Under the pieces are notes generated by a model that was given only the letters and a program-made list of their open reading frames with translations, searched no databases and had not been told where the DNA came from. The position numbers were made by a program, and so were the translations under genes. Positions 6,441-29,286 of a stretch of 64,000 bases of DNA are shown here, piece after piece. Each line of letters begins with the position of its first letter. The first letter of the stretch is position 1. Source of the DNA: Opitutaceae bacterium (GTDB lineage: Bacteria; Verrucomicrobiota; Verrucomicrobiia; Opitutales; Opitutaceae); the NCBI GenBank assembly GCA_016795565.1, contig JAEUGW010000041.1, forward strand, positions 1-64,000, given 5' to 3'.

Positions 6441-6830
6441 ATGAAATTTGAACACCTGGCCCTGAATGTCCCCGATGTGCGCGCGATGAGCCGCTGGTAT
6501 GTGCAGCACCTCGGCCTGAGTGTGGTGCGGAGCCTGGATGCGGAGCCTTTCACCCACTTTCTGGCCGACGATACCGGCCGGGTGTTCATTGAGTTCTACT
6601 CGAACCCGGCGGCGCCGTATCCCGATTACGCGACGACACACCCGTTGGTGCTGCATGTGGCCTTCTTCACGCCGGATGCCGGCACGGCGCAGGCGAAGCT
6701 GCTGGCGGCGGGAGCGAAGGCCTTCTCGGACGACACGATGCCCGACGGCAGCCGGCTGATCTTCGTGCGCGACCCGTGGGGCGTGCCCGTGCAGCTGTGC
6801 CAGCGCGCGAAGCCGTTTCCGGGATTTTGA
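6441..6830 (+). CDS. VOC-family (glyoxalase/bleomycin-resistance fold) protein
   Basis: A 129-residue single vicinal-oxygen-chelate module: MKFEHLALNVPDVRAM with the first metal-type His at residue 5, YVQHLGLSVV, VFIEFYSNP, LVLHVAFFTPDA, and the closing strand LIFVRDPWGVPVQLCQR. Such proteins bind a divalent metal and act as lyases, dioxygenases or resistance binders; the substrate cannot be told from sequence. The ATG at 6441 begins exactly at the domain; the larger upstream open frame is antisense to pyrH. It stands alone, divergent from pyrH. Confidence 0.85.
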   Translation: MKFEHLALNVPDVRAMSRWYVQHLGLSVVRSLDAEPFTHFLADDTGRVFIEFYSNPAAPYPDYATTHPLVLHVAFFTPDAGTAQAKLLAAGAKAFSDDTMPDGSRLIFVRDPWGVPVQLCQRAKPFPGF

Positions 6831-7321: not shown

Positions 7322-9463
7322 ATGCCCAAAAAATCAGCCACTCCAGATGCTCCCGTCCCATTCGGCCCCAAGTATATCGATGTCCGCGCGATCCCCGTTG
7401 GCATCTATGGCCGCGTCTCAACTGACCACCAAGTCGGCTTCCGTTTCGACTCCTGTGAGCACCAGGTGTTGGTCTGTCGAGACTACATTCAAAGAATGGC
7501 ATCTTGTGGCTGGTTTGAGGCGGGGTGCTTCGTCGATCAGGCTTACTCCGGCGCCAATATGGACCGGCCCGGGATACAGGCATTGATGGCGCAGATTGCT
7601 GCGGGAAGAATCAAAATTGTCCTGATCTACAAACTCGAACGCATCCTCCGCAGCACCTATGAGTGGGCCAAGTTCAGCAAATTCCTCGAAGAGCACGGCT
7701 GCCGGTTGCTCACGCCCTACGACGACCATTCCGATGATTCAGCCGCGGGGCGATTCAAGACCAATATGCTCGTGACCATGTCAGAATACGAACGAGACAA
7801 TATCTCCGAAAAGACGGTCGACAAGATGCGAGCCCAGGCAAGGCGTGGCATGTGGAATGGCGGATGCATTCCGTTTGGGTATGATTATGATCGCGGCCTT
7901 CAGCAATTGCGGCGCAACCCGACCGAGGCGCGAATCGTCGCCCGGATCTTTCAGCAGGCGGCGGAGCTTGTCCCGCTTGGAGAGGTTGCTGACCGCCTCA
8001 ATAGTATCGGCGTCCGGACGGGCCAACGCTGGAGAAAAGACGCCGCCCGAAATCGCCATGCCATCGGTCAGAAACCGTTCCGAACAGATGTGCTGAGAAA
8101 GCTGATTCAGAATCCACTCTACCGCGGGGCCATTCGATTCCGGGGGGAAGAATTCAAAGGGCAACATGAAGCCTTGGTTACACCTGATGTTTGGGATCAA
8201 GCCAACGCAGCCATCGCTGAGGCAAAAAGGAAGCCCAAGATCCGCCTTCGCCCGCTAGATAAATACGCCAATCTTCTCAAGGGCATGGTTGTCTGTTCGT
8301 ATTGCGGTGTGCCGCTCTTCTCTCGGGCGAGTGGCAAAGACCGCCTCGACGGCAAACTTTACCGCTACTATGCGTGTGTAGTCGCGAAACCCGCGGATGA
8401 AGGCGGCCCTTGCACGCTTGGTAGTGTTGCAGCTCAGCCACTGGAAGAGGCCATCATCGAGTTCCTATGTCATCCGGGCTTGGGCCGCCTCGCCAGTGAG
8501 TCGCTGATGGAAATTCCAGCTGCTGACGTTGCTCTCCGACGCAAGCTAACAGCCGAGCTTGCGGGCCTCGACGCAGAACTGGAGAAAGTGCAAACGCGCA
8601 CACAAAACTGCCTCGATGTAATAGCCGAAGAAGGGCTGCAGGGTATAAAACAAGAGTTAACGGAAAGGCTCGCCGGCCTGCAGACGCAAAAGCAGCCAAT
8701 TCTCATAAGACGTGCGCAATGCCGGCAACAGCTCACCACGCTCGACGAGCAAACCTTCAATCACGCACGTGTATGCCATGCTTTTGAGCGACTTGCCCGC
8801 CTATTGCCCAACATGGAGCGGGAACGGCAGCGACAAATCTTCTTCAGCCTGTTTGAATCGATCCAGGTCAGCAGGCTCAAACGGCCTCGCGACTACAGGG
8901 CCACCGATGACAGCGAACAGGTCCTGAAACTTGGATTCCGCTTCCGTCTCTCCAATTTTGTGGAGGCCATGGAGCGGGATGTGGTGATCGACGACCGCAC
9001 CGCCCGAACCCCGGCTTACGGCAGACGATTGCTCGAGATTGATGCCCAGATCGCACTGGGCCGGAAAGGCCGGACCAAGATTGTTGCTCCATTTCAGATA
9101 GAAATCGGGCCAGAGGCCGCCGTGGCCCCTGTGCCGATCGAGCAGGTCAAACACCCAATCCATCGTGCAATAAACTGGGAAGTGGAGCTAGAGCGCGGGA
9201 CCAGCGTTCGCGCGTTGGCGCTGAAAGAGAATGTATCAGCTTCGCTTGTTAGCTTTCATCTAAAGCTGCTCCGTCTGGCGCCGGAGATCCAAATCTTCGT
9301 CCGCGAGCTTTCGACTCCAGCCGAAGTGGAGTTCTTTAGCCTGAGAAAACTCGCGCTGTTGTCGGAACTGGACCGGGAGGCACAGCTCGTGAAATTCAAG
9401 ACGTGGCAGCACCGATTCAGCTCCATGCCGGCCTCAAATGCTTCCATATCTGCTGCGTCCTGA
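7322..9463 (+). CDS. Large serine recombinase (integrase type)
   Basis: A 713-residue site-specific recombinase. The N-terminal resolvase domain carries the catalytic serine in YGRVSTDHQ (Ser33) and the conserved arginines of KLERILRSTYEW and SEYERDNISEKT. A recombinase domain follows (RRGMWNGGCIPFGYDYD to NPLYRGAIRFRGEEF), then a zinc ribbon (CSYCG with later Cys in YYACV and GGPC) and a coiled-coil-like stretch. The extra C-terminal 130 residues contain a helix-turn-helix-like segment (SVRALALKENVSASLVS). The architecture is that of phage or element integrases. The ATG at 7322 is fixed by an adjacent hairpin and family start. No accessory excisionase is visible next to it. It may serve its own small element or the large conjugative element. 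Confidence 0.92.
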   Translation: MPKKSATPDAPVPFGPKYIDVRAIPVGIYGRVSTDHQVGFRFDSCEHQVLVCRDYIQRMASCGWFEAGCFVDQAYSGANMDRPGIQALMAQIAAGRIKIVLIYKLERILRSTYEWAKFSKFLEEHGCRLLTPYDDHSDDSAAGRFKTNMLVTMSEYERDNISEKTVDKMRAQARRGMWNGGCIPFGYDYDRGLQQLRRNPTEARIVARIFQQAAELVPLGEVADRLNSIGVRTGQRWRKDAARNRHAIGQKPFRTDVLRKLIQNPLYRGAIRFRGEEFKGQHEALVTPDVWDQANAAIAEAKRKPKIRLRPLDKYANLLKGMVVCSYCGVPLFSRASGKDRLDGKLYRYYACVVAKPADEGGPCTLGSVAAQPLEEAIIEFLCHPGLGRLASESLMEIPAADVALRRKLTAELAGLDAELEKVQTRTQNCLDVIAEEGLQGIKQELTERLAGLQTQKQPILIRRAQCRQQLTTLDEQTFNHARVCHAFERLARLLPNMERERQRQIFFSLFESIQVSRLKRPRDYRATDDSEQVLKLGFRFRLSNFVEAMERDVVIDDRTARTPAYGRRLLEIDAQIALGRKGRTKIVAPFQIEIGPEAAVAPVPIEQVKHPIHRAINWEVELERGTSVRALALKENVSASLVSFHLKLLRLAPEIQIFVRELSTPAEVEFFSLRKLALLSELDREAQLVKFKTWQHRFSSMPASNASISAAS

Positions 9464-16050: not shown

Positions 16051-17391
16051 ATGGCCGACCCGAAGACCCGACCGCCGGAATCGCTGGAAAAGCGGGTCAT
16101 GGCTTTCCTGGCCAACCGGCCCGGAGCCGAGAACATCGACCGCCTGCCGCTGACCCCGGCCCAGCGCGCCAGCGAGAAAGCCGACTTCTTCTTGGAGCGA
16201 CGGACCATCGTTTGCGAGGTGAAGGCGCTGCAGACGGATACCAAGGAGAAGATCGACCGGATTCTGGAGCCTATCCTGCAACGGTCGGATGCCCCCGTCT
16301 TCTACGGCGAGTGGGAAATGGAGAAAGTCCTCAAAAACCTCCCGGACGGCGAAGCCATCAGGCGCAAGGTATTCGAGGCGACCACCTCCGCCATCTGGAA
16401 TCTCTTTCGCAAAGCCAACGAGCAGATCAAGGCAACGAAAGGCACCTTCGACCTGCCTTCCGCCGGCGGCGTCCTCGTGCTGGCGAATGACTTGGTGCCC
16501 ATCCTCTCCCCGCAAGTGCTGGTCGCCCGGGTTAACGAACTCTTTGGTCACAAGGAGCCCGACGGGCGCATCTCCTACCCGGAGGTCGAGGCCGTTTGGA
16601 TTCTCGCCGAAACTCACCTCGTGGACATCGGGCAAGGCCAGCAATCCGTGGCCGCCATCACGATCCACCGCGAGGACGATTCCGCCGCCGTGCGCTGCCT
16701 CGATGCCCTCCAGCGCCCGTGGGCTGCGGTCCACGGAATGCCCTACGTGGAGATGAAACAGGATTTGTTCAGCACCCTGCAGTTCCAGGAGATCCCGAAG
16801 TCACCACCACCCACCCACGGGCCCCGGCATGAACGCTGGCGCCTCGAATACCGGCGCAACCCCTATCTGCGGCACCACTCCGAAGTCCAGTTGAAGGAAT
16901 TCTTCGCCAAGCTGATGCCGGCCATGACTGTCGGATTCCTCAAGGGCGCAAAGCCTGGACAGCTCGAAACGGCGAGCGCCCTCATGGAACAGTTCACGCA
17001 TTTTCTGGAGGAACTCCGCGCCCGCGGCCTGGACTTCCGCAAGATCACGGGGGGCCTTCCGCCGATGGGCCCCGACCTGCCGCCGGTCGCCGACCTCCCG
17101 GGCCTCGCCGCCACGGTCCACGTCGCGCCCAAATTCGAGCGCGATCGGTTCTACACCAACCGGGAGGGCAAACATTACCGCTGTCTCACAGTATCCGGCG
17201 ACAACGTGTGGTTGCTCCTTCTCGACTTGGTCGCCGGGAGAAGTCTGGAGGTGACCATGCGCACCAAGATGGCAACCGCGGCCCACTATCATCCGGTTTT
17301 CGACCCCGGCCTACTGGCCGGACTGGAGACAAGATACATCCGCTGGGCCGTGCGCCATCGCGCGAAATTTGACGCCGAGCACCCGCAATAG
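16051..17391 (+). CDS. Putative PD-(D/E)XK-type nuclease, unknown family
   Basis: A 446-residue protein of unrecognised family. Near the N-terminus (about 42-62) SEKADFFLERRTIVCEVKAL has the arrangement D-x(11)-E-x-K expected of the PD-(D/E)XK catalytic site, preceded by a helix. The rest contains alpha/beta segments (GGVLVLANDLVPILSP, VEAVWILAETH) and a C-terminal part (FYTNREGKHYRCLTVSGDNVWLLL) with no recognised match. It lies in the defence island behind a small gene and converges with the zinc/nuclease paralogue pair. A nuclease role is an inference from one motif. Confidence 0.7.
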   Translation: MADPKTRPPESLEKRVMAFLANRPGAENIDRLPLTPAQRASEKADFFLERRTIVCEVKALQTDTKEKIDRILEPILQRSDAPVFYGEWEMEKVLKNLPDGEAIRRKVFEATTSAIWNLFRKANEQIKATKGTFDLPSAGGVLVLANDLVPILSPQVLVARVNELFGHKEPDGRISYPEVEAVWILAETHLVDIGQGQQSVAAITIHREDDSAAVRCLDALQRPWAAVHGMPYVEMKQDLFSTLQFQEIPKSPPPTHGPRHERWRLEYRRNPYLRHHSEVQLKEFFAKLMPAMTVGFLKGAKPGQLETASALMEQFTHFLEELRARGLDFRKITGGLPPMGPDLPPVADLPGLAATVHVAPKFERDRFYTNREGKHYRCLTVSGDNVWLLLLDLVAGRSLEVTMRTKMATAAHYHPVFDPGLLAGLETRYIRWAVRHRAKFDAEHPQ

Positions 17392-17399
17392 CGGACGGG

Positions 17400-18452
17400 T
17401 CACTTCAGCTTGCGCCGCAACGCCGCGAGCTGCTCTGCCACGCGAGGCTCGTTGAGGTCGTCGTCCTCCCCGAAGCACGCAAGTGTGACGCCCTGCCTCG
17501 CACAAAGCTCCGCTTTCCGGCGGTCCCGCTCCTTCACCGCCGCGAGTGCCTTCTCGCCTCCCAAGTAGTCGAACGCCCGATAGTGCTGGGCTCCTTGAAA
17601 TTCGACTCCCAGCCGTTCCGTGGGAATCCAGATGTCCAATTCCAGTCCGCCCAAAAACTCCGGCTTCGCGTGCCGGATGACCTCCTGACCGCGGAAGATG
17701 GACCGCAGGTTCAGATACAGCACCGTCTCCCGCTGCAGCCATGCCTTGAACTCGGGGAATTCATAGTGGCTTCGCAACCGCGCCACCGCGAAATCCTTCA
17801 CCTGCTGCCGGGCCGCCTCGATCGCCCGTTCGAGTTCCGCCCACCGCTTATGGCGTTGTTGATACTCGCGCCAGTCTTCCGCTCCCGCTCGCGGCTGCGG
17901 CGTCGCCGAGCCGTGCAATAGCGCGCTCAACTGCCGTGCCTCCGTCACCCATTCCCCGAAATTCGCCGGCAACAATTGAGCCTGCCACGGAGTCTCGATA
18001 TGAGGCAAGGGATGGGCGATGAAAGAAAACCCCAGCTCATGCAGCTCACGATAGATCAGCCGCCGGAAGACGTTTTCGAAATAGGACCGGCTTTCCATGT
18101 TTTCATAAGGTGGCACCGCCCGATGACAACGGTGGCAAATCGCCTCCCGGTAGCGGATTCTTCCGCCGATATTCACGTTGTCGGGCTGCTCCGCCCACAA
18201 GGAATCGCGCACGGCTTTCGGAAAGGAGTGGTTGACGACGAAATCGTAGCGGCCCTGTGGCCGGGGCCCGCCCCGTCTGGCCCGGATCGCTTTTTCTTCC
18301 AATTCGCTATTTAGGTAATGGCAGATGGCCGACCGCGTGCACTCGCAGAAGTAGGCCGGCTCGCCCGGAGCTTCCGCATACGCCATGAACACATAGCCCG
18401 CGTGGCAGATGGGCAGCGGCAGGGAGGTGCGGACTTCCGGGAGGTCGGTCAA
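17400..18452 (-). CDS. Zinc/PD-(D/E)XK-like protein A (second of a paralogous pair)
   Basis: A 350-residue protein starting with TTG at 18452 that overlaps the upstream stop (TTGA); this fits the reading frame better than a longer version whose N-terminus is antisense-like. The N-terminal half has Cys pairs CEC (36-38) and CHRC (106-109), likely a zinc site. The middle is helical. The C-terminal 90 residues carry LELDIW (Asp273), GVEFQGAQH (Glu284, Gln286, His290) and VKERDRRKAELCARQGV, the pattern of DUF559/Vsr-like members of the PD-(D/E)XK superfamily. It is clearly related to the gene just upstream (same order of motifs). Role unknown; a DNA-cleaving defence function is likely. Confidence 0.75.
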   Translation of the reverse strand: MTDLPEVRTSLPLPICHAGYVFMAYAEAPGEPAYFCECTRSAICHYLNSELEEKAIRARRGGPRPQGRYDFVVNHSFPKAVRDSLWAEQPDNVNIGGRIRYREAICHRCHRAVPPYENMESRSYFENVFRRLIYRELHELGFSFIAHPLPHIETPWQAQLLPANFGEWVTEARQLSALLHGSATPQPRAGAEDWREYQQRHKRWAELERAIEAARQQVKDFAVARLRSHYEFPEFKAWLQRETVLYLNLRSIFRGQEVIRHAKPEFLGGLELDIWIPTERLGVEFQGAQHYRAFDYLGGEKALAAVKERDRRKAELCARQGVTLACFGEDDDLNEPRVAEQLAALRRKLK

Positions 18453-19468
18453 GGGGTGCGCTCCTTTTTCCGCCGATGGCGTGCAATCTCCCCGCCGACA
18501 AATTCCTCCGTGAGCGGGTCGGTGTAGTTGATGGCCACCAAGGTCACGCCCTGTTTCCGGCATAGCCTGGCTTTCAGGCGGTCACGTTCCTGCACCCGCG
18601 CCAGCGCCTCCTCGCCACCCCAGGCCTCGACCGGATGAAAGTGCTGCTGCCCCTGATACTCCAGCGCGAGCCCTTGGGCGGGCACAAAGACATCAAGCTC
18701 CAGCCGGCCGAGCCACTCGGGCCGGTGATGGCGGAGCACTTCGGTATCGGGAAAAAGACGCCGCACGAGGTTGCCCAGCATCGTCTCTGAGACCCAGCCT
18801 TCGCCTACTTTCCTAAACCCGAACTCCTCCCGGGTCAGGTCGATGACGGCATTCTTCAAACGTCGCTCCGCCGTCTGGCAGGCCCGTTGGTTGACCGGAG
18901 TGGGTTCAGCGTCGCGGGTTTGCGCCGCCGCTACGCTCGCCTCCACCAACCGCTGGATCGATTCCGGGCAGATTTGCGGGAGGAAGTCCCCGTCGAGCAC
19001 GCCAAGCCGCAACCGCATCTGGTTCACATACCAGCCGTAGGCTTGGTCGAAACGCCCGCCATACATCTCATGGCAGTAGCGCCAGGCGGGCGGCACAAGG
19101 TTGCACCGGTGGCAGAGCTTGGGGCGGAAGTTCAACGGCTGCAGCGGATCGTCACGGTGCAGCTGGGACAGGTCCGCGATGAAGTCCGGCACATGCCGGC
19201 TGTCGAGCGGCGCCCTCCGCTGGGGATTGGCATTCGGCCGCGCCGGCCGCCGGCGGTTCAATTCAGCCAGGTGCGTGAGTGGCGTGCGGGCACACTGGCA
19301 CAAGAACCACGGCCCTTGCTCTTCCGCGCCAAAGGCGAGGAACGTTCCATAGTGCCCGGGATAATGCACCCACGGCATCGGCAGCGCCCGCTCGAAGGCA
19401 ATTCCACCCAATGAGACCGGTGGAATCTCGGCGTGACGGCGGCGGCGGGGCTTGGGCATCGGCGCCAT
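18449..19468 (-). CDS. Zinc/PD-(D/E)XK-like protein B (first of a paralogous pair)
   Basis: A 339-residue protein (start ATG 19468, alternative ATG 19459). It repeats the layout of its neighbour: FLCQC and LCHRCNLVPP Cys pairs in the first half, a helical middle, then RLELDVFVP, LALEYQGQQHF and VQERDRLKARLCRKQGVTLV at the C-terminus. The shared core is about half identical between the two, while the middle differs, suggesting a diverged duplication forming a heterodimer or two specificities. The genes overlap by four bases. The start lies 116 bases from the start of the giant NTPase gene on the other strand, so the promoters are divergent. Confidence 0.75.
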   Translation of the reverse strand: MAPMPKPRRRRHAEIPPVSLGGIAFERALPMPWVHYPGHYGTFLAFGAEEQGPWFLCQCARTPLTHLAELNRRRPARPNANPQRRAPLDSRHVPDFIADLSQLHRDDPLQPLNFRPKLCHRCNLVPPAWRYCHEMYGGRFDQAYGWYVNQMRLRLGVLDGDFLPQICPESIQRLVEASVAAAQTRDAEPTPVNQRACQTAERRLKNAVIDLTREEFGFRKVGEGWVSETMLGNLVRRLFPDTEVLRHHRPEWLGRLELDVFVPAQGLALEYQGQQHFHPVEAWGGEEALARVQERDRLKARLCRKQGVTLVAINYTDPLTEEFVGGEIARHRRKKERTP

Positions 19469-19583: not shown

Positions 19584-22500
19584 ATGAGCGATCACCCCAC
19601 GAGTCCTGCCGCGACCGGCGACCGGGGCGGGAGCTTTGAACAGCAGGTGGCGGCGTGTCACTTGGCCTACCTGCTCTCCCGGGGCGTGCCGCCATTCCTG
19701 CAGGGGGCGACGGTCGAGGAGGTTCACCTGCAAGCCGGACACCTCGGCTGGAAAACCGATGACCTTGTGTTGGTGGGGGCCGGCCCCCGCCGGCGGCAGG
19801 CCGCGTTGCAGGTCAAGAGCGCCTTCATCTTCTCCGCTGATAACAAGGAATGCCAGGAAGTGTTCGCCGCTGCGTGGGCCGATTTCAACAACGCGGCGTT
19901 GTTCGACCGGACCCGGGACGGCATCGCCGTGATCTGCGGGCCCCTGCCGGTGGCGACACAGCGACGGCTCCGCATCGTGCTTGATGCCGCCCGCGCCGCG
20001 CTCAATGCGGCCGACTGGCTGAACCGCCTCACGCTGCCCGGCTACCACGAGCACGGGGCCGCGCTGGCAGCCGACGCCCTCCGGGCGCTGCTGACCGAGG
20101 CGAACGGGTCCGCTGTCACCGACCAGCAGCTGTGGGAATTCGCCAAGGTCTTTGACTTCCAGTGTCTCGACCTGCTGACCCCCAGCAGTGTCACCGAGGC
20201 GTCGGTCCGCTCACTTCTGGCGTTCACTGCGTCCGCGGGCCCGCTCCCGCCCGCCGAGGCGGCGGAGCGGACGTGGAACGAATTGCTGGCGCTGGTGGGG
20301 ACCGGCGAACCCACCGCCGCCAGCTATGACTACGCCAAGCTGCCGGATTCGCTGCGGCAGCGGCACGACAAGGCCCCCAGTATCACCGGCACCACCGCCA
20401 AGGCCATTGCCGACCATTCCAAGATCGTCGAGCGCGGCGTGAAAACCACCATCGGCGGCAAGCTGACGCTCGCCCGCACGGAACTGGTGGCAACCATCCA
20501 AGCCGCCTGGGAGAACCACCGCATCCTGTGCATCAGCGGCCCGGCCGGCTTGGGCAAGTCCGGCGTCACCAAGGCCGTGTTTGAGCTGATGAAGGCGGAG
20601 GGGCTGGCCATCGCCTTCCGCGCCGAGAGCTTTGCCGAGCCGCACCTCAACGACGTCTTCGCGCCGCACGGCTTCACGGCGGAGTCCTTTCGCGCGCTGG
20701 CCGCGCTGCACCCGCGCAAATGGATCTGGGTCGAGAGCATGGAGCGGCTGCTGGAGAAATCGGAGCGCCACGCCTTCCTCGATCTGCTCGCGCTGGTCGC
20801 CGACGATCCCAGCCTGCGGCTGATCCTGACCTGTCGGGACTATCAGGTGGAGGCGATCAAGTCCGCCATGTTCGGGGCCTCGGGCCTCCCGTTTGTCCAC
20901 CTCGCGGTCCCGAATTTGAGCGATGCCGAACTCGCGGAGGCCGAGCGGCAGATGCCCGCCCTGGCGGTGCCCCTCGGCGTGCCCCGGCTCCGCGAGCTGC
21001 TGCGCAATCTGTTCATGCTGGAAAAGGCGGCGGCCCTCGACTGGTCGGCCGGCGCGGCGCTCCCGCAGAACGAACGGGAATTCCGGGCCAAGGTCTGGCG
21101 CGAGACCGTCCGGCGGGAGGACCAGCCGGCCGGCGGGATGCCGCAAAAGCGTTCGACCGCCTTCATCGAAATCGCGGTGCGCCGCGCCCAGAAACTCGAA
21201 GCGTTTGTCGATTGCGCCGACCTCGATGCCGAGGTGCTGCAACAGTTGCGCCAGGACGGCCTGACCATGTGCGCGGCCAACGACGACGCCTGGGTCGCCA
21301 CCGCCCACGACGTGCTCGAAGACTGGGCGGTGCTCGAATGGCTGTCCCAACAGTGGCGGCGCCAGCAGGGCGACGTGCCCAAATTCCTCGCCCAGATCGG
21401 CACCTTCCCCGCACTGCGCCGGGCCTACCGCCGCTGGCTCACGGAATGGCTGGAGGCGGAGCCGGCGGTCGCCGACCAGTTTGTGCTGGGCGTGCTGGCC
21501 AGCACCGCGGACCGCCATTGGCGCGACGACACGCTGGCGGCGACGCTGCTCTCCGGCACGGCCGACGGTTTTATTCGACGCAATGAATCTGTCCTCGTGG
21601 CCGACAATCTGGCGCTGCTGCGGCAGTGCATCCACCTGTTGCGCGTCGCCTGCAAGGGCACCCCGGCCTGGCTGGGGCGCCGGCAGGCCACCGGTGCGGT
21701 CCCGCTCGTGCCGCAGGGTCCGGCCTGGGGGGCAATCATCGACGTGGTGCAAAAGAATCTCGCGGTGTTCTCCGCCGAGGACAAGCCGCTGCTCGCGGGT
21801 TTGCTGGGGGACTGGTCGCGTTCCGCCACCGAGCAAACCCCATACCCCGCCGGTGCCGATAGCGCCGCCAAGATCGCCCAGTCGTTCCTGCCCGCAGACG
21901 AGGATTACGGGTTCCGCGCCGACGAACTGAACCAGAATTTTGCGGCCATCCTGCTGCGGGTGCCCAAGCCGGTAGAGGCCGACCTGACAGCCCGCATCCG
22001 CGCCAGCGTGAAGGAAGACCGGTGGGACCGGTGGCGGCCGGGCCTCGCCGGTCTCGCCCTGAGCTATTTCAAGGCCGCCGCCCTGGCGCGGGACTGCCCC
22101 GACCTCGTGATCGAGGTGCTGGAGGCCTATGTCGGCCTGAATCCCGAAGTCGAGGAAACCCCAGAATCCTACCGCCGCCCGGAAATCGCCGAGGGTTTCG
22201 GCCTGCCTTCCCGCCTGCAATTCGACGAGCATCAGGACAGCGCCTACCACGGTCCCTTTGGCAACCTGCTGCGCTATCACCCGGCCAAGGGGATCGACGT
22301 GCTGGTGCGCCTGATGAACAAGTGCTGCGCCGCCTACGGGGACCCGGCGCACCTGCCGCACTTCCTCGAGAAGCCGGTGCAGGTGACGCTCGAGTTGCCG
22401 GACGGAACCAAGGTCCTGCAATGGGCCAACAGCCGGCTCTGGCTGATGTTTCGCGGGACCTCGGTCGCGCCCGCGGTGCTGTGCTCCGCCCTGATGGCCT

Positions 22501-24662
22501 TGGAAGCGTGGCTGTTCGACCTCGCCGAATCCAAGCCCGCCGAGCTGGAGGCCACGCTGCTCGACCTCCTGCGCCGCAGCAACAATGTCGGTGTCACCGC
22601 CGTGGTCGCCAGCGTGGCCCAGGCGTATCCCCGGCCCGCCGGGAAAGCCGGCCTCGCCCTGCTGAGCTGTCCGCCGCTGTTCGATCTCGACCTGGGCCGG
22701 CGCGTGTCCGAAAGCGGCAGCACCGGCGGGCTCCTCTCCCTGCCGCCGATTGACGCGGAGCACGCGATCTTCGACCACGAGCGCGGTGCGGCCCGCGCCC
22801 GCGAGCATCGCCAGGAGGATCTGGAGGCCTATGCCGTGCGCCTGCAATTCGGGCCGCTCAAGGCCGAAGTGCAGCGGATGCTGGACACCTACCGCGCGGC
22901 GCTGCCGCCGGTGGCGGAACAGGATGAGGAAACCGTGCTGTGGCGGCTGCGGCTGCACCGGATCGACCTGCGCAATTTTGAAGTGGCGCAAACACTGGAG
23001 GACGGCCGGCGGCTGATCCAATCGACGCCGCCGGCGAGCGACATCCAGGAATTGATTGGGAAGCGCCAGCCGGCCCTCGACCGCCACAATCAGATGATGA
23101 GTCTGTGGCATTGGTCGACGCAGTGCTGGGAGCGGAAGAAGGACTCCAGCGATCCCAAGGAGTGGCCCGCGCGTCTGGCGGAAGCGCGCCGCTTGAGCAC
23201 TGCGGACGGTGCGTCCAGCCGGCTGGACGAGCGGCTGGAGAATTCCGCGATCCCGCAGGTTGCGGCGATTTGCCTGCGCGACCATTGGGACGAGATGTCC
23301 GCCGAAGACCAGGCATGGTGCCGCGAATGCGTGTGTGCCGCCGCCGTGCAGGAAGCCGACCTCCGGGCGGAACACGGCATGCTCCTGCGCGGCACGCTCG
23401 ATCTCAACCGCGCCGCCGCCGAAGCATTGCCCCTCCTGCTGGGCAAAACCCTCACGCCGGAGGAGCGGGCCGATGTCCTTGAATGCCTCGCCATCGCCCT
23501 GACGCACGCGCAGGACCCGGTGCGAGGGGCCGCCGCGCTCGGCATCGGCCGCCGGGTCTGGGATCTCGACCCGGCGCTCGCGTGGAGCTGCGTGGGCGCT
23601 CTCGTGAAGGAGTTCGAATTTATGAAGGCCAAGCGGAAGGAGCAGGACGGCGTGCCTTTCCCGGACCGGGTGCCATGGGAGCAGATCGAGCAGCTCGCCG
23701 CGAATGAGGTGCGCCCCGGGCTGATCGCCCGCGAGCCCGTGTCCCGTGAAAAGCTGCTCGCCCTCGCGCTGGGCGACGGCTCCGGCCACAAGGTCCTGCC
23801 GCTCTTGCTGGCCATCATGGTTCTGGCGCCGCCGGCCGATCCGCTCGCCGTCGAGTTCTTCGCCCTCGTGGCGCAGACCCTCTCCGCCGCGTGGGCGCAC
23901 GAGGCGGAGAAGGGCCAGCGGAACAGCCACTCCAAATTCGACGACGACGAAGAAGGCCTCGATCTCGAAAAGGAAGCGATGCTGTCGCGCCACCTCGCCC
24001 AGTTCCTCCTCGATCTTTCGCCCGAGCAGGCGGTGAAGACGGCCGCCCCGGTGCTGGCGGCGGCGCTCCTCCACCCGGAGAGAGGGGCGGCCTTCCTCGG
24101 TCACCTGATTGACGCCCAGGACCAGCGCCAGAACTCGCCGGCGTTCTGGCCGCTCTGGCAGTCGCTGGCGGATGGATTGATGGTGACCGTCAGCGCCAAG
24201 AAGCGCACCCCGGCGCAGCAACGGGGCATCCCCAAGCTCGTGGAAAAACTCTTCCTCGGCGTGCACTGGAACCCCGACACAAGCGACTGGCTCCCACTGG
24301 AGGGGGAAACCGGCCGGCTGGAGGAACTGTTCGCCGCCTTCGGCGCGCATCCGCTCGTCGTGGAGTCCTACCTTGTCTGCCTCCGCCGGCCGGGCGCCAA
24401 GCGCCTGCTGCCCCAAGCCTTCCTCGCGCTGGCCAAGAAAGTCTCCACGAAGCCGGCGGCCCAGGTGCTCTCGTCGCGCAGCGTCGCCTGGCTGGAGGAA
24501 ATTCTCGGCCGCTTCATCTATTCGGACCCCACGGCGCTCAAGGTGACGCCGGAGATGCGCGCCGCGGTGCTGGTCCTGCTCGACGCCTGCATCGAAGCGG
24601 GCTCCTCCGAATGCTACCGGCAGCGTGATGACTTCCTCACGCCGGCGGCACCGCCGGCATAA
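19584..24662 (+). CDS. Avs-like giant NTPase with N-terminal Cap4-like nuclease
   Basis: A 1692-residue protein. Residues 15-120 resemble the Cap4/DUF4297 dsDNA nuclease: GGSFEQQVAACHLAYLL, DDLVLV (Asp59/60) and ALQVKSA (Gln76, Lys78), the QxK variant of the PD-(D/E)XK site. A P-loop NTPase follows with Walker A GPAGLGKS (319-326), a Walker-B-like strand KWIWVESMERL and the sensor strand LILTCRD (413-419), as in STAND proteins. The last 1100 residues are helical and repeat-like, expected for a ligand-sensing solenoid. This is the layout of antiviral STAND ATPases (Avs), which bind a phage protein, oligomerise and unleash the nuclease. The ATG at 19584 fits the domain start. I cannot say which Avs type it is, or whether it is a new one. 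Confidence 0.82.
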   Translation: MSDHPTSPAATGDRGGSFEQQVAACHLAYLLSRGVPPFLQGATVEEVHLQAGHLGWKTDDLVLVGAGPRRRQAALQVKSAFIFSADNKECQEVFAAAWADFNNAALFDRTRDGIAVICGPLPVATQRRLRIVLDAARAALNAADWLNRLTLPGYHEHGAALAADALRALLTEANGSAVTDQQLWEFAKVFDFQCLDLLTPSSVTEASVRSLLAFTASAGPLPPAEAAERTWNELLALVGTGEPTAASYDYAKLPDSLRQRHDKAPSITGTTAKAIADHSKIVERGVKTTIGGKLTLARTELVATIQAAWENHRILCISGPAGLGKSGVTKAVFELMKAEGLAIAFRAESFAEPHLNDVFAPHGFTAESFRALAALHPRKWIWVESMERLLEKSERHAFLDLLALVADDPSLRLILTCRDYQVEAIKSAMFGASGLPFVHLAVPNLSDAELAEAERQMPALAVPLGVPRLRELLRNLFMLEKAAALDWSAGAALPQNEREFRAKVWRETVRREDQPAGGMPQKRSTAFIEIAVRRAQKLEAFVDCADLDAEVLQQLRQDGLTMCAANDDAWVATAHDVLEDWAVLEWLSQQWRRQQGDVPKFLAQIGTFPALRRAYRRWLTEWLEAEPAVADQFVLGVLASTADRHWRDDTLAATLLSGTADGFIRRNESVLVADNLALLRQCIHLLRVACKGTPAWLGRRQATGAVPLVPQGPAWGAIIDVVQKNLAVFSAEDKPLLAGLLGDWSRSATEQTPYPAGADSAAKIAQSFLPADEDYGFRADELNQNFAAILLRVPKPVEADLTARIRASVKEDRWDRWRPGLAGLALSYFKAAALARDCPDLVIEVLEAYVGLNPEVEETPESYRRPEIAEGFGLPSRLQFDEHQDSAYHGPFGNLLRYHPAKGIDVLVRLMNKCCAAYGDPAHLPHFLEKPVQVTLELPDGTKVLQWANSRLWLMFRGTSVAPAVLCSALMALEAWLFDLAESKPAELEATLLDLLRRSNNVGVTAVVASVAQAYPRPAGKAGLALLSCPPLFDLDLGRRVSESGSTGGLLSLPPIDAEHAIFDHERGAARAREHRQEDLEAYAVRLQFGPLKAEVQRMLDTYRAALPPVAEQDEETVLWRLRLHRIDLRNFEVAQTLEDGRRLIQSTPPASDIQELIGKRQPALDRHNQMMSLWHWSTQCWERKKDSSDPKEWPARLAEARRLSTADGASSRLDERLENSAIPQVAAICLRDHWDEMSAEDQAWCRECVCAAAVQEADLRAEHGMLLRGTLDLNRAAAEALPLLLGKTLTPEERADVLECLAIALTHAQDPVRGAAALGIGRRVWDLDPALAWSCVGALVKEFEFMKAKRKEQDGVPFPDRVPWEQIEQLAANEVRPGLIAREPVSREKLLALALGDGSGHKVLPLLLAIMVLAPPADPLAVEFFALVAQTLSAAWAHEAEKGQRNSHSKFDDDEEGLDLEKEAMLSRHLAQFLLDLSPEQAVKTAAPVLAAALLHPERGAAFLGHLIDAQDQRQNSPAFWPLWQSLADGLMVTVSAKKRTPAQQRGIPKLVEKLFLGVHWNPDTSDWLPLEGETGRLEELFAAFGAHPLVVESYLVCLRRPGAKRLLPQAFLALAKKVSTKPAAQVLSSRSVAWLEEILGRFIYSDPTALKVTPEMRAAVLVLLDACIEAGSSECYRQRDDFLTPAAPPA

Positions 24663-24692: not shown

Positions 24693-24825
24693 CGGCCCGC
24701 TGCCAGTCCAGTTCAGCGAACGGTCACGCCCAGGCAAAGAAAAATTACTCGCCCTTTTGGGTTAAAATCCCGCGGGGTCCGGCAATCGTCATTTGGCGGT
24801 GGCCCCCACGACGGCAATTCCTAGG

Positions 24826-25659
24826 ATGGATTCCGCCGTGGCGACCTTTCCCAGTTTTGACCCCAACGTGCTGGAGCGCATCTGCGATGTGCTCGCGGCG
24901 ACGGATTCCCGCCTAACGGGCACGGACATGGGCAAGTTGCTCAACCAACTCGGCATCGCCGACCCGATGGTCGGTGCGACCAAACGGGTGCGCCTGCTGG
25001 AAGCCCTGCGGCAGCGCCAAACGCAGGACCACTGCGGCAACCTTGTGGTGGCGTTCGTGCAAAAGGCCATGAGCCCCGTCCGTCACACCGGGGCCCAGGA
25101 CTGGTTCGAGGCAACCCGCAATGACCTCAATACCGTGCTCGCTTTCGCTGGCCTCGAACTCGGTGCCGACGGTCAGGTTCGTCCGCGCTCCACCGCCAAG
25201 ACCATCGACCAGGCCGAGCAACGCGCTCTGCGCCTGCGGAACGAACTTCTCCGCCGGCAGGTGCACGGCGATGTGCTCAAATTCTGCACGGCCGAACTGG
25301 TGAAGGACGATTACTTCCACGCTGTGCTGGAAGCGACTAAGAGTGTCTCCCAGAAAATCCGGGACAAGACCGGGCTCACCGGCGACGGCGGCGATCTCGC
25401 CACCAAAGCCCTTTCCCTCGGTCAGGTCGGGATGCCGTTCCTCGCCTTCAACAGCCTTCGCAACGACTCCGAGAAAAGCGAGCAGTCCGGCCTGATGACC
25501 CTCACGGTCGGCATGTTCAGCACCTTCCGCAATCCCACCGCGCACGCGCCCCGGATTCACTGGAATGTGTCGGAACAGGATGCGATCGACCTGCTGACGA
25601 TGGCCTCGTTCCTGCATCGTCGGCTGGACACGGCCGCCCGCACCCCGCGCACGGTCTGA
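24826..25659 (+). CDS. Hypoth_Ymh (TIGR02391)-type protein with HEPN motif
   Basis: A 277-residue protein whose C-terminal 130 residues match the Ymh family: DDYFHAVLEATKSVSQKIRD, then LATKALSLG, then GMFSTFRNPTAHA. The last contains R-x4-H (RNPTAH), the catalytic motif of HEPN ribonucleases. The N-terminal half (FDPNVLERICDVLA, TGTDMGKLLNQLGI) resembles a small helical DNA/RNA-binding module often paired with it. ATG 24826 was preferred to TTG 24793. Four bases separate it from the next gene, which also has a HEPN motif. Members of this family occur in abortive-infection settings; activity here is inferred. Confidence 0.8.
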   Translation: MDSAVATFPSFDPNVLERICDVLAATDSRLTGTDMGKLLNQLGIADPMVGATKRVRLLEALRQRQTQDHCGNLVVAFVQKAMSPVRHTGAQDWFEATRNDLNTVLAFAGLELGADGQVRPRSTAKTIDQAEQRALRLRNELLRRQVHGDVLKFCTAELVKDDYFHAVLEATKSVSQKIRDKTGLTGDGGDLATKALSLGQVGMPFLAFNSLRNDSEKSEQSGLMTLTVGMFSTFRNPTAHAPRIHWNVSEQDAIDLLTMASFLHRRLDTAARTPRTV

Positions 25660-25663
25660 TCCC

Positions 25664-26230
25664 ATGAGCACCGTCACCGGATTCTCGGGCCAGTATGTGA
25701 GCCTCGCGGTGGCCCTGCGCCTCGCGCTGGACGACTACCGGGCCTGCGGCGCCGAGCCCCGCGGAAAAAGAAAATCCATTGTGGAGGCAATCGAGGGGCC
25801 CCGCGCCCGGGCGATCAACGTCGTGCTGCTGAACGCCGCCCTGTGCGAGGCCACGATCAACACCGTCCTCTCGCTGCAGTTCAGCCCGGCGATGTGGGCC
25901 TCGGTGGACCGGCTGCCCACCATCAAGAAATGGACGGCCATTCCGCAGAGGATCTGGCCCGGCTGCGAGATTCCGGCCAGCGACGCGTTGCACAAGGAAC
26001 TGGCCGCACTCTTTGCCTGCCGCAATGCGATCATGCACCCGGTGCCGGAAGTTCACCGGGGCGCGGATGAGTCGCAATCGGGCAACGTCAAGGACTGGCG
26101 GACCCTGGATGACAAGCTGGTCACCGGTTCGCACGACCTCGTGCTGCGCCTGCTCCAGCATCTGGCGAAATTCGATTTCAGTATAAAACTGCACCACGAC
26201 TCCATTGCGGAGCACCTGAACCGCCGCTAA
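25664..26230 (+). CDS. HEPN-like helical protein
   Basis: A 188-residue, mostly helical protein without a family I can name. Helix NVVLLNAALCEATINTVLSL is followed near residue 118 by FACRNAIMHPVPEV, an R-x4-H motif (RNAIMH) as in HEPN domains. It begins four bases after the Ymh-type gene, so the two are co-translated. It may be a partner or a second HEPN ribonuclease. It could also be a non-catalytic helical protein in which the motif is coincidental. Confidence 0.65.
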   Translation: MSTVTGFSGQYVSLAVALRLALDDYRACGAEPRGKRKSIVEAIEGPRARAINVVLLNAALCEATINTVLSLQFSPAMWASVDRLPTIKKWTAIPQRIWPGCEIPASDALHKELAALFACRNAIMHPVPEVHRGADESQSGNVKDWRTLDDKLVTGSHDLVLRLLQHLAKFDFSIKLHHDSIAEHLNRR

Positions 26231-26279
26231 TGCCGGTCAGGGTTTGCAGTCGGCCCCGTCCTCGGTAAGGATACTACTC

Positions 26280-26864
26280 ATGAAGAAAGCTCCGGCGGCG
26301 GCTCCCCTTGCGAGTTCACAGATAGCCTGCCTCGGCTGGGGTTCGCTGGTGTGGGACCCGCGCGACCTGCCGATTCACCGGCGATGGTTTGAGGACGGCC
26401 CGCTCGTGCGGGCGGAATTTCTGCGGCAATCACAGGACCAGCGAATCACGCTGGTTCTGCACAAGGACGTTCCCTTCGTCCGCAGCCTTTGGGCCCTGAT
26501 GCCGGTGGCCTCGCTCGTGGAAGCACGCGAGAAACTCGCCCTTCGCGAGGGCATCAAGGACACCCGCATTGCCCAAGACATTGGCGCTTGGTCGCAAGGT
26601 GCGCCGGAAGTTCCGGTTATCGCCGGCCTTGCGGCTTGGGCGGCGGCACGCGGGATCGAGCATGTGGTCTGGACGGCACTGCCCCCGAAATTCACGGGCA
26701 CGGCGGGCCGCGTGCCCACGGAGGCCGAGGTGGTGCAGCATCTGTCCGGGTTGAAGGGACCGACCCGCGATGTGGCCGAACAATACATCCGGCGCACGCC
26801 CCGGCAGGTGGATACATTATACCGGCGGGCTATCGAGGCGAAGCTGGGTTGGGCTGCCCTTTAA
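26280..26864 (+). CDS. GGCT-like (gamma-glutamylcyclotransferase-fold) protein
   Basis: A 194-residue protein. The start IACLGWGSLVWDPRDLP matches the YGSL-type loop of gamma-glutamylcyclotransferase-fold proteins, with SLWALMPV as a later strand and a helical C-terminus. The usual enzyme cleaves gamma-glutamyl peptides; substrate here is unknown. ATG 26280 is preceded by TAAGGA at 26266-26271, so it was preferred over an earlier frame start. It is 49 bases after the HEPN-like gene and may be unrelated cargo. Confidence 0.68.
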   Translation: MKKAPAAAPLASSQIACLGWGSLVWDPRDLPIHRRWFEDGPLVRAEFLRQSQDQRITLVLHKDVPFVRSLWALMPVASLVEAREKLALREGIKDTRIAQDIGAWSQGAPEVPVIAGLAAWAAARGIEHVVWTALPPKFTGTAGRVPTEAEVVQHLSGLKGPTRDVAEQYIRRTPRQVDTLYRRAIEAKLGWAAL

Positions 26865-26925
26865 TGGCCATTTGGGCTCCTTTTGGCCGATCAACGGCCT
26901 GACAAGGCCGGTTATAGTGGGTTTT

Positions 26926-26986
26926 GCATGGTTTTTTAGCTGTCACAGGGCTATTTACATAATTCCAGATACACCAAAAACCATGC
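26926..26986. promoter_or_regulatory. 11-bp inverted repeat before the abiE genes
   Basis: GCATGGTTTTT (26926-26936) and AAAAACCATGC (26976-26986) are perfect complements 39 bases apart in an AT-rich stretch 40 bases upstream of the toxin start. AbiEi-family antitoxins are known to bind paired inverted repeats at their own promoter, so this is the likely autoregulatory operator. Confidence 0.6.
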
Positions 26987-27029
26987 TTTTGCTATTGCGA
27001 GTTATTCAACTGGGTGTGAACTAGGCGAC

Positions 27030-27791
27030 ATGAGCCCAAGGCAGGCAGTCGAGCGATTTCACCTCGTGTTCCTGAAGCATTTCACGAACACGGTCAGCCC
27101 GGGCACGATCTGCCTCAAGGGCGGGGTGAACCTGCGCCTCTATCACGGCAGCCCCCGGCTGTCCGAGGACATGGATTTCGACGCCCGCATTGTCGCCGTC
27201 GCGACGCTCCGCAAGAACGTCAATAAGACGTTGAAGGCCCGGCCACTGGTGGCCGAGCTGGCCGCCGCCGGCATCGCCTTGAGCGAGCCCAACGATGACA
27301 AGCAGACCGCTACCTGCCAGCGCTGGAAATTCGACGTGATCTTTGAGGGCCGGCCCACCGCCACCCGCCTCGAATTCTCGCGTCGGAAAGAGGATGGCTT
27401 CGACGTCAATCGCGTGTCGCCGCCGGCGGCGGCAATCCTCGGCGAGCACCAGTTGGCTCCGTTTCTTTTTCCCCAATACCTGCCGCCGGCCGCCTACCGG
27501 CAGAAGATCAATGCCCTGGCCACCCGCCGCTACGCGCAGGCCCGCGATGTGTTCGACCTGCAGCTGCTCTCCCGCCACGCCGCCGCCGGCCGCGAGGCGC
27601 CGCCGGCCCTCGTCGAGAAAGCGCTGGAGCAACTTGCGACCATCACCTTCGCGATGTTTCTGGACCTCGTGATTCCCTTCCTTCCGGCCGACCTCGCCGC
27701 CTACTACGGGACCGAGGAAGCCTGGAGCCAAATGAAGGAGCAAGTGCGACAGGATCTGACCGCCGCACTGCCTCCTCCCCCCGCCACATGA
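27030..27791 (+). CDS. AbiEii-family nucleotidyltransferase toxin
   Basis: A 253-residue protein with the AbiEii/MNT-like nucleotidyltransferase site: CLKGGVNLRLY (GG motif) and RLSEDMDFD (D-x-D metal pair), plus the Lys/Arg-rich strand TATRLEFSRRK and the AYRQKINALATRRYAQARDVFDL helix typical of the family. AbiEii toxins modify tRNA or other targets and stop growth, aborting phage infection. It overlaps the antitoxin gene by four bases (ATGA). Here the toxin gene comes first, the reverse of the classic abiEi-abiEii order. Confidence 0.87.
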   Translation: MSPRQAVERFHLVFLKHFTNTVSPGTICLKGGVNLRLYHGSPRLSEDMDFDARIVAVATLRKNVNKTLKARPLVAELAAAGIALSEPNDDKQTATCQRWKFDVIFEGRPTATRLEFSRRKEDGFDVNRVSPPAAAILGEHQLAPFLFPQYLPPAAYRQKINALATRRYAQARDVFDLQLLSRHAAAGREAPPALVEKALEQLATITFAMFLDLVIPFLPADLAAYYGTEEAWSQMKEQVRQDLTAALPPPPAT

Positions 27792-28417
27792 CCACACTTT
27801 CCTTCTATCAAAAAATCGCCGCTCAGCGGCATGTGACCACGCGGTCGGCGGCCCAGCTGGCCGGGATGTCGATGACGACCGCTTCGATGGCACTGCAACG
27901 GCTCTCGGCCGAAGGCTTGGTCACGCGCATCAAGGCCGGCTCGTGGCTGGTCGGCTCCGCTGTGCGTGAACCTGCCGCGCTGGTGGCGGCTGTCGCCCGT
28001 CCGTATGAGGCCTACCTCTCGGGCTGGTCCGCGCTGCGGCATCACGGGCGCATCCAGCAGTTTCCCGAGACCCATTTCGGCGTTACGCTCGGCCGGCCGG
28101 CCGAAGTGAAGGTGGCCTCCGTGCGGGTGTGGCTGCACCACATCACCCCGACGCTTTTCACGGGTTACGATTTCGTGCCCGAGCTGGGGGGGCACGTGGC
28201 CTCTCCCGAAAAGGCCCTGTTTGACCTCGTTTATTTCGCGGCGATGAACCGGCGCCGTCATAGCGGCCGGTTGCCCGAAACCGAATTGAACGGCCTGCAC
28301 TGGCGCGACATTCAGGGCTGGTTGCGCCGAGTTCCGGCCGTCCACCTCCGCACGCTCATGGAGCGAAATTTCAAGGCCCTGCGGGAACAGCACGCCAGTA
28401 ATCCGGCGGACGAGTAG
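27788..28417 (+). CDS. AbiEi-family antitoxin
   Basis: A 209-residue protein: an N-terminal winged helix-turn-helix (TTRSAAQLAGMSMTTASMAL, LSAEGLVTRIKAG) followed by the AbiEi C-terminal domain (PYEAYLSGWSALRHHG, then ASPEKALFDLVYF). It should bind DNA at the inverted repeat upstream of the pair and block the toxin. It is second in the operon and overlaps the toxin stop by four bases. Confidence 0.87.
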   Translation: MTTLSFYQKIAAQRHVTTRSAAQLAGMSMTTASMALQRLSAEGLVTRIKAGSWLVGSAVREPAALVAAVARPYEAYLSGWSALRHHGRIQQFPETHFGVTLGRPAEVKVASVRVWLHHITPTLFTGYDFVPELGGHVASPEKALFDLVYFAAMNRRRHSGRLPETELNGLHWRDIQGWLRRVPAVHLRTLMERNFKALREQHASNPADE

Positions 28418-28473
28418 GTCCGGGCGGCTGGCCCGCGATTGACCTTTCCTCCGGTGGGTGGGAAAATGCCGGG

Positions 28474-29286
28474 ATGTTCAACGTCATCGTCGCCTATAAC
28501 CCGACCGCCTGGGAAACCGACCAGTTGATGCGGATGGATGATGACCGCTTCAAGGAATACAGCGGCGGTCCGGAATCGGACCGGGTGGAACTGGCGAAGC
28601 CCGCGACTCTGAAACTGCTCGAAGGGATTCCGACCTTGCTCTTCTACGAAAGCGGTTCCGAGGGTGCCGCTGCCAAGGTGGTCCGCTACGGAACGGTGCA
28701 CGGCGTGCACGCCGCGAAAGACGAAGTCGTCTTCCGGTTCACGGAAGAAGGCCGCTTCACCCGGGCGGTGCTGGAGGAATATATGTCGCGGCTGGACATC
28801 GGGCGCTTTGAAAGCAACCGCACTCACTGGGCGGTCAAGGAGGGCGGGCTTCCCAGCGCGATGATGAGTCATCTGCGGCCAACCTACGACATTGTGTTTT
28901 CCTTCGCGGGCGAGGACCGGACCTATGTGGCGAAGGTGGCGCGCTACTTGAAGACGAAGGGCGTGAAGGTGTTTTATGACGAGTTCGAGTCGGCCGATCT
29001 TTGGGGCAAGGACCTGGCGGAGCACTTCAGCATGATTTACGGACAGAGTGCCCGCTATTGCGTGATGTTCATTTCGGCGGCCTACGTGAGGAAGATGTGG
29101 ACCCGGCACGAACGCCGGAACGCCCTCTCTCGCGCCGTCGAGGAACATCAGGATTATATCCTGCCGGCACGGTTCGACGACACGCCGGTGGACGGCATCC
29201 GGTCGAGCATCGCCTACATTTCCCTCGACATGCTTTCGCCGCTCCAATTCGCGAAACAAATACTGAAGAAGCTTGGCCGCTCTTGA
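28474..29286 (+). CDS. TIR-domain protein with a novel N-terminal domain
   Basis: A 270-residue protein. Residues 138-260 are a TIR domain (YDIVFSFAGEDRTYVAKV, LKTKGVKVFYDEFESADLWG, then MWTRHERRNAL with the likely catalytic Glu213). Bacterial TIR domains degrade NAD+ or make signalling nucleotides during phage defence. The first 125 residues (NVIVAYNPTAW, PTLLFYESGSEG, VVRYGTVHGVH) are an unrecognised beta-rich domain, presumably the sensor. It stands alone after the AbiE pair, with no obvious SIR2, SLOG or Thoeris partner beside it. Confidence 0.85.
   Translation: MFNVIVAYNPTAWETDQLMRMDDDRFKEYSGGPESDRVELAKPATLKLLEGIPTLLFYESGSEGAAAKVVRYGTVHGVHAAKDEVVFRFTEEGRFTRAVLEEYMSRLDIGRFESNRTHWAVKEGGLPSAMMSHLRPTYDIVFSFAGEDRTYVAKVARYLKTKGVKVFYDEFESADLWGKDLAEHFSMIYGQSARYCVMFISAAYVRKMWTRHERRNALSRAVEEHQDYILPARFDDTPVDGIRSSIAYISLDMLSPLQFAKQILKKLGRS

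Follow-up and report, generated by a model that had tools for sequence, protein, structure and literature searches.

Genes A and B are best explained as deeply diverged members of one unnamed nuclease family that combines a zinc-binding-type N-terminal part with a C-terminal domain of the Vsr/DUF559 type, moves as single-gene mobile cargo, and likely attacks incoming DNA; we put the probability of this reading at about one half. The protein family seems to be genuine and so far uncharacterised. Both the family and its architecture appear to be undescribed, and searches of the libraries and the open literature turned up no account of them. The two genes lie in a window of 64,000 nucleotides from an Opitutaceae bacterium, the whole stretch of DNA that was analysed, together with the following features.

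7322-9463, forward strand: large serine recombinase of the island (context)
17400-18452, reverse strand: gene A, 350 aa, TTG start; divergent member of gene B's family
17403-17744, reverse strand: predicted nuclease domain of A, residues 237-350; E242, D273, E284, Q286, H290, D310, K313
18449-18452, reverse strand: TTGA overlap, TGA stop of B over the TTG start of A
18449-19468, reverse strand: gene B, 339 aa; predicted N-terminal Zn-binding-type part, helical middle, and C-terminal Vsr/DUF559-like nuclease domain
18452-18796, reverse strand: predicted nuclease domain of B, residues 225-339; alpha-beta-beta-beta-alpha-beta core; E228, D259, E270, Q272, H276, D296, K299
18461-18466, reverse strand: AAGGAG, 8 nt before the TTG of A and resembling a Shine-Dalgarno site
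19584-24662, forward strand: Avs4-like STAND NTPase, 1692 aa (PADLOC Avs4, E 2.3e-133)
24793-25659, forward strand: PD-Lambda-3_B/Hypoth_ymh protein (context)
27030-28417, forward strand: AbiEii-type toxin gene with winged-helix partner (context)

The gene pair and its island

The sequence-only reading had described A and B as adjacent leftward genes of 350 and 339 aa, and their coordinates, strands, and lengths are as it claimed. It had also let A begin with a TTG inside the stop codon of B. Because the frame of A stays open upstream to an in-frame ATG at 18563, from which A would be 37 aa longer, this start had to be tested. The TTG is preferred because AAGGAG lies 8 nt upstream of it and the GC content by codon position switches there, from 0.78/0.62/0.46 in the ATG extension to 0.66/0.44/0.76 within A. 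The GC pattern of the extension is the coding pattern of B read out of frame, and the coding bias of A begins at the TTG. No site comparable to AAGGAG precedes the ATG. The TTG start, and with it translational coupling of B and A, is thus well supported.

Synteny within the genus stops near 6826, and the island follows conserved core genes and starts with the large serine recombinase; a search for its empty integration site did not resolve the right end. Moreover, A and B have a GC3 of 0.76-0.79, whereas the core genes on the flanks reach 0.92-0.94. This context suggests that A and B are horizontally moving cargo.

The proposed defence-island setting was borne out, with Avs4, PD-Lambda-3_B, AbiEii, and TIR genes nearby. 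The Avs4-like gene is divergent from B and begins about 115 bp upstream of it. Its product matches NCBIfam NF041815 with an E value of 2.9e-144 but with 482 bits, under the 1500-bit cut-off; being well below this equivalog cut-off, it is taken as a divergent Avs4. On the forward strand, positions 24793-29286 hold a defence-type run of PD-Lambda-3_B (Hypoth_ymh), two unnamed ORFs, AbiEii with its winged-helix partner, and a TIR protein. Convergent with A is a 446-aa ORF (16051-17391, forward strand) with weak similarity to DpnII-MboI (E 0.26); its only relatives are two plasmid ones at 28-30% identity, one of which overlaps a recombinase-annotated stretch.

Conserved residues and predicted fold

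A and B align over nearly their whole length with 29% identity (E 1e-35). The common order of features noted from the sequence was located in both proteins: CxC at residues 36/38 of A and 57/59 of B, CHRC at 106-109 of A and 119-122 of B (the CxxC pair, 119/122 in B), and the C-terminal core, in which the residues listed above for A match those of B. In an alignment of 31 family members, 17 positions are invariant, and A and B keep all 17 of them; the match between the two is not due to chance, since these positions are invariant across all 31 members. The core follows the signature E…D-x10-E-x-Q-G-x-Q-H…D..K. In addition, the four cysteines of CxC and CxxC are invariant in 31/31 members and would most simply form one zinc site.

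AlphaFold (AF2) models built with 29 aligned sequences reached a pLDDT of 91.5 for B and 86.0 for A, and a nuclease fold is predicted at both C-termini. About 115 C-terminal residues form a PD-(D/E)XK core. In the model of B, the elements are H227-238, E245-248, E258-262, E267-272, H285-305, and E309-314, and A has the same order; the acids D259/D273 fall on strand 2 and E270/E284 on strand 3. The leading structural matches are Vsr (1cw0; Z 10.1 for B and 10.8 for A, over 106-112 residues), I-Bth0305I (3r3p; Z 9.4 for B and 10.0 for A), and the RAP domain of FASTKD4 (9gek), which is the top match for B with Z 11.1; 2p14 also appears for B, with Z 5.5.

Profile comparison points the same way. 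With hhalign, the C-terminal profile of the family matched that of DUF559 with a probability of 93% over 67 columns, pairing D259, E270, H276, and D296 with the DUF559 motif, the second D of which is replaced by Q. Against the Vsr profile, no sequence similarity was detected (probability 4%), though DUF559 compared with Vsr itself gave only 17%. The PD-(D/E)XK lysine two residues past the strand-3 acid is absent and is replaced by Gln272/Gln286, which is invariant in the 31 members; substitutions at this position occur in several families. Overall, the models, with structural matches of Z about 9-11, and the DUF559 profile support the resemblance to DUF559/Vsr-like PD-(D/E)XK nucleases that had been noticed in the core, and A and B are predicted to be most like a Vsr/DUF559-type nuclease in mode of action.

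That the pair could not be named also stands, as neither protein is assigned a family in Pfam, NCBIfam, or PADLOC. PF04480 (DUF559) gave no match to A, B, or nine relatives at E up to 1, and PF03852 (Vsr) gave none to A or B. With neither Pfam model matching, the family cannot be placed in DUF559 or in Vsr. DUF2726 reached E 0.02 with B, below the cut-off of that model. No family of PADLOC 2023, which predates later-published systems, matched A or B at E up to 0.1, and sequence searches of the PDB gave nothing meaningful.

Relatives, phylogeny, and neighbourhoods

The family was scanned for in one genome per species (84,980 species), which yielded 159 confirmed relatives, the best 80 of which were kept. 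Among these 80, about 30 are full-length B-type relatives, from Verrucomicrobiota, Pseudomonadota, Bacteroidota, Bdellovibrionota, Chloroflexota, Bacillota, haloarchaea, and others; more full-length copies occur on plasmids and in proviral contigs. Without the rest of the protein, the nuclease domain occurs on many other N-termini as well, including in phages. A second large architecture, seen in Flavobacteriales and others (L064-L083), carries it on longer N-termini, for example with VNGFLG-like motif repeats. Within the window's phylum, only 2 of 387 genomes encode a full-length match to the profile, the window's own and G227; a third genome (G301) has a related protein of 481 aa that is extended at its C-terminus. 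One family member from the same order (L110, 1006-2451) has a helical extension of ~200 aa C-terminal to the nuclease domain. Searches with A at E up to 0.001 found neither A nor B in 94 near relatives, 20 of them of the same genus.

The closest relative of B is a 66% identical orthologue in an Opitutia MAG, with a sister support of 100/100; an excisionase-like gene and one for a tyrosine integrase lie next to it, and A is absent there. A forms a long, deep branch with no stable place in the tree, and its placement was still unsettled after G301, an A-leaning relative of the same order, had been added. Joining A and B cost even the best such tree 30 log-likelihood units (AU p 0.019); with the Opitutia gene joined to them as well, the AU p was 0.047. 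A recent duplication in situ is thus disfavoured, although the long branch of A calls for caution. The earlier proposal of a diverged duplication stands insofar as A and B are true full-length paralogues, but only as a deep divergence, an A+B clade being disfavoured. No close orthologue of A was found among the best 80 of the 159 relatives from about 85,000 species genomes, and viral contigs scanned for A alone gave nothing. Since the sequence of A itself satisfies the scan patterns (E[YF][QN]G[QVA]QH[YF]), a close orthologue in the species collection should have surfaced.

The A-B pair was seen only in this window. In the genome, viral, and plasmid collections and in the 387 genomes of the phylum, each locus of a close relative holds one intact family gene, and no A-type second copy lies beside full-length close relatives in any of their loci. 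Three candidate pairs (L046, L056, and L058) were rejected as two pieces of one broken gene each. The one in Bacteroidetes HLUCCA01 (L056, 7012-10591) is a B-type gene split near residue 148 by an insert of ~2.5 kb, possibly an intron or a mobile element. Some viral loci carry two family ORFs (L142, L162, L175, and others), but these encode distant phage nucleases that match mainly in the C-terminal domain, and they were rejected too. An all-against-all comparison of neighbours for a conserved partner gene found only phage repressor and integrase recurring across unrelated loci. Given the single gene in each relative's locus, the Opitutia sister without A, and the tree, the tandem is, within the collections covered, a local juxtaposition of two ancient paralogues and not a recurrent two-gene system, which weakens the earlier claim about the pair.

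The relatives have varied neighbours. In Flavobacterium (L036), Avs2 lies 67 bp upstream of a B-type gene. Two prophages (L123, 4226-7391; L129, 4328-7867) have a CI repressor gene, the family gene, and then a tyrosine integrase gene in the same direction, and in L122 (4214-5927), a family gene directly follows the CI repressor gene at the contig end. Genes between CI repressor and integrase are often expressed in the lysogen and protect it. In phage L125 (4365-6377), the family gene lies 46 bp ahead of the gene for the terminase small subunit, where HNH endonucleases are often encoded, and this placement fits other phage roles. The neighbours of chromosomal relatives are mixed: defence genes occur, but so do genes for SecA, HypF, and methylmalonyl-CoA mutase, and many copies have housekeeping neighbours. 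Defence genes were not visibly commoner within 2.5 kb of the relatives than at 6.5-10 kb on the same contigs, a weak control because the near and distal sets both lie within 10 kb.

Candidate functions and known systems

In the mechanism that we propose, a four-cysteine N-terminal part, probably zinc-binding, is linked by helices to the Vsr/DUF559-type PD-(D/E)XK domain, whose conserved acidic residues and histidine would hold a metal ion and which most likely uses it to nick or cut DNA. Defence islands, integrase elements, and prophages would spread the family horizontally as a single-gene cargo, and attacking incoming DNA, in defence or superinfection exclusion, would be its likeliest job. 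Such a role is our leading guess; in view of the housekeeping neighbours, the terminase-side copy, and the lack of defence enrichment, it is a guess and not a result. In the window, the tandem genes would be translated as a coupled pair, so that the products of A and B would be made together. The two may work in parallel, each on targets of its own, or may join in a hetero-oligomer, much like the heterodimeric restriction enzymes of the nickase type.

The pairing could go further, with A and B as an obligate heteromeric nuclease, one subunit for each strand or a cutter with a recogniser, and hence a true two-gene system. The stop-start overlap with its ribosome-binding site and the intact active-site residues in both proteins agree with this, as does the existence of heterodimeric nucleases such as R.BspD6I (2p14). 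We nevertheless consider it quite unlikely, because the pair does not recur, B-type genes stand alone elsewhere, including the Opitutia orthologue, and A has no close relative, so that no A-B co-evolution is visible. A more elaborate version, in which A and B form a heteromeric restriction nuclease partitioned by strand or sequence, possibly with Avs4 alongside, and their single-gene kin are superinfection-exclusion nucleases of prophages, seems very unlikely. Conversely, B alone might matter and A be a decaying extra copy, which would suit its long branch and its want of a close orthologue; A keeps all the family-invariant residues, an intact frame, coding bias, a ribosome-binding site, and a confident fold, and we give this idea very little credence.

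Other explanations concern the family as a whole. Its members could be selfish, free-standing homing-type endonucleases of the EDxHD-like kind, or phage passengers, of no use to the host. The weaker PHROG matches are phage homing and intron endonucleases, I-Bth0305I is among the best folds, and the same nuclease domain occurs on many different N-termini in phages. However, the immediate neighbours of A and B give no sign of insertion into a conserved gene or an intron, relatives recur in CI-integrase modules and beside Avs genes, and the Zn-type N-terminal part is kept as a unit from haloarchaea to Bacteroidota, which makes this explanation unlikely. It is highly improbable that the domain binds nucleic acid without cleavage, as in an RNA-binding regulator of the RAP type. 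The best structural match of B is a RAP domain, RAP domains share the fold with no reported cleavage, and mutation of a Vsr-like residue in FASTKD4 revealed no nuclease function (PMC11879112). Yet Asp, Glu, and His are invariant in the present family, whereas FASTKD4 has Asn at the catalytic His position (PMC11879112), and this invariant His makes catalysis the better guess.

For the preferred reading, a mobile single-gene nuclease directed at incoming DNA, the CI-integrase position and the Avs neighbours provide a concrete single-gene candidate for an anti-phage role. The family is sharply conserved and confidently folded, extends over bacteria, haloarchaea, plasmids, and prophages, and has no name in Pfam, NCBIfam, or PADLOC. 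The tandem in the window is a natural case for asking whether two distant paralogues cooperate.

Among known proteins, DUF559 (PF04480) shares with the family the alpha-beta3-alpha-beta core and the D-x10-E-x-x-G-x-x-H...D spacing, besides the profile match at 93% probability; however, it has E-x-D-G where the family has E-x-Q-G, and it lacks the Zn-type N-terminal part. Vsr (PF03852; 1cw0, 1vsr) is the nearest solved nuclease fold (Z 9-11), with corresponding positions of the acidic residue and His, whereas its Thr63-His64 is replaced by Glu-Tyr/Phe in the family, to which its Pfam model does not extend. The EDxHD homing endonucleases, represented by I-Bth0305I, have a similar catalytic fold (Z 9.4-10.0) and appear among the weaker PHROG matches, but the family has its conserved four-Cys N-terminal part in place of NUMOD-type DNA-binding repeats. 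The immediate neighbours of A and B are Avs4 and the unrelated 446-aa ORF, and from these alone no intron or insertion context is seen. The RAP domain of FASTKD4 resembles B in fold and differs in lacking the catalytic His (PMC11879112); RAP proteins are eukaryotic and RNA-binding. In type III-B CoCoNuTs, the Vsr-like domain is fused to a helicase within an McrBC-type operon, neither of which is found here (PMC11090510). Because the Vsr-like PD-(D/E)XK domain of those systems is a predicted defence effector (PMC11090510), the kind of effector that A and B would represent is already known.
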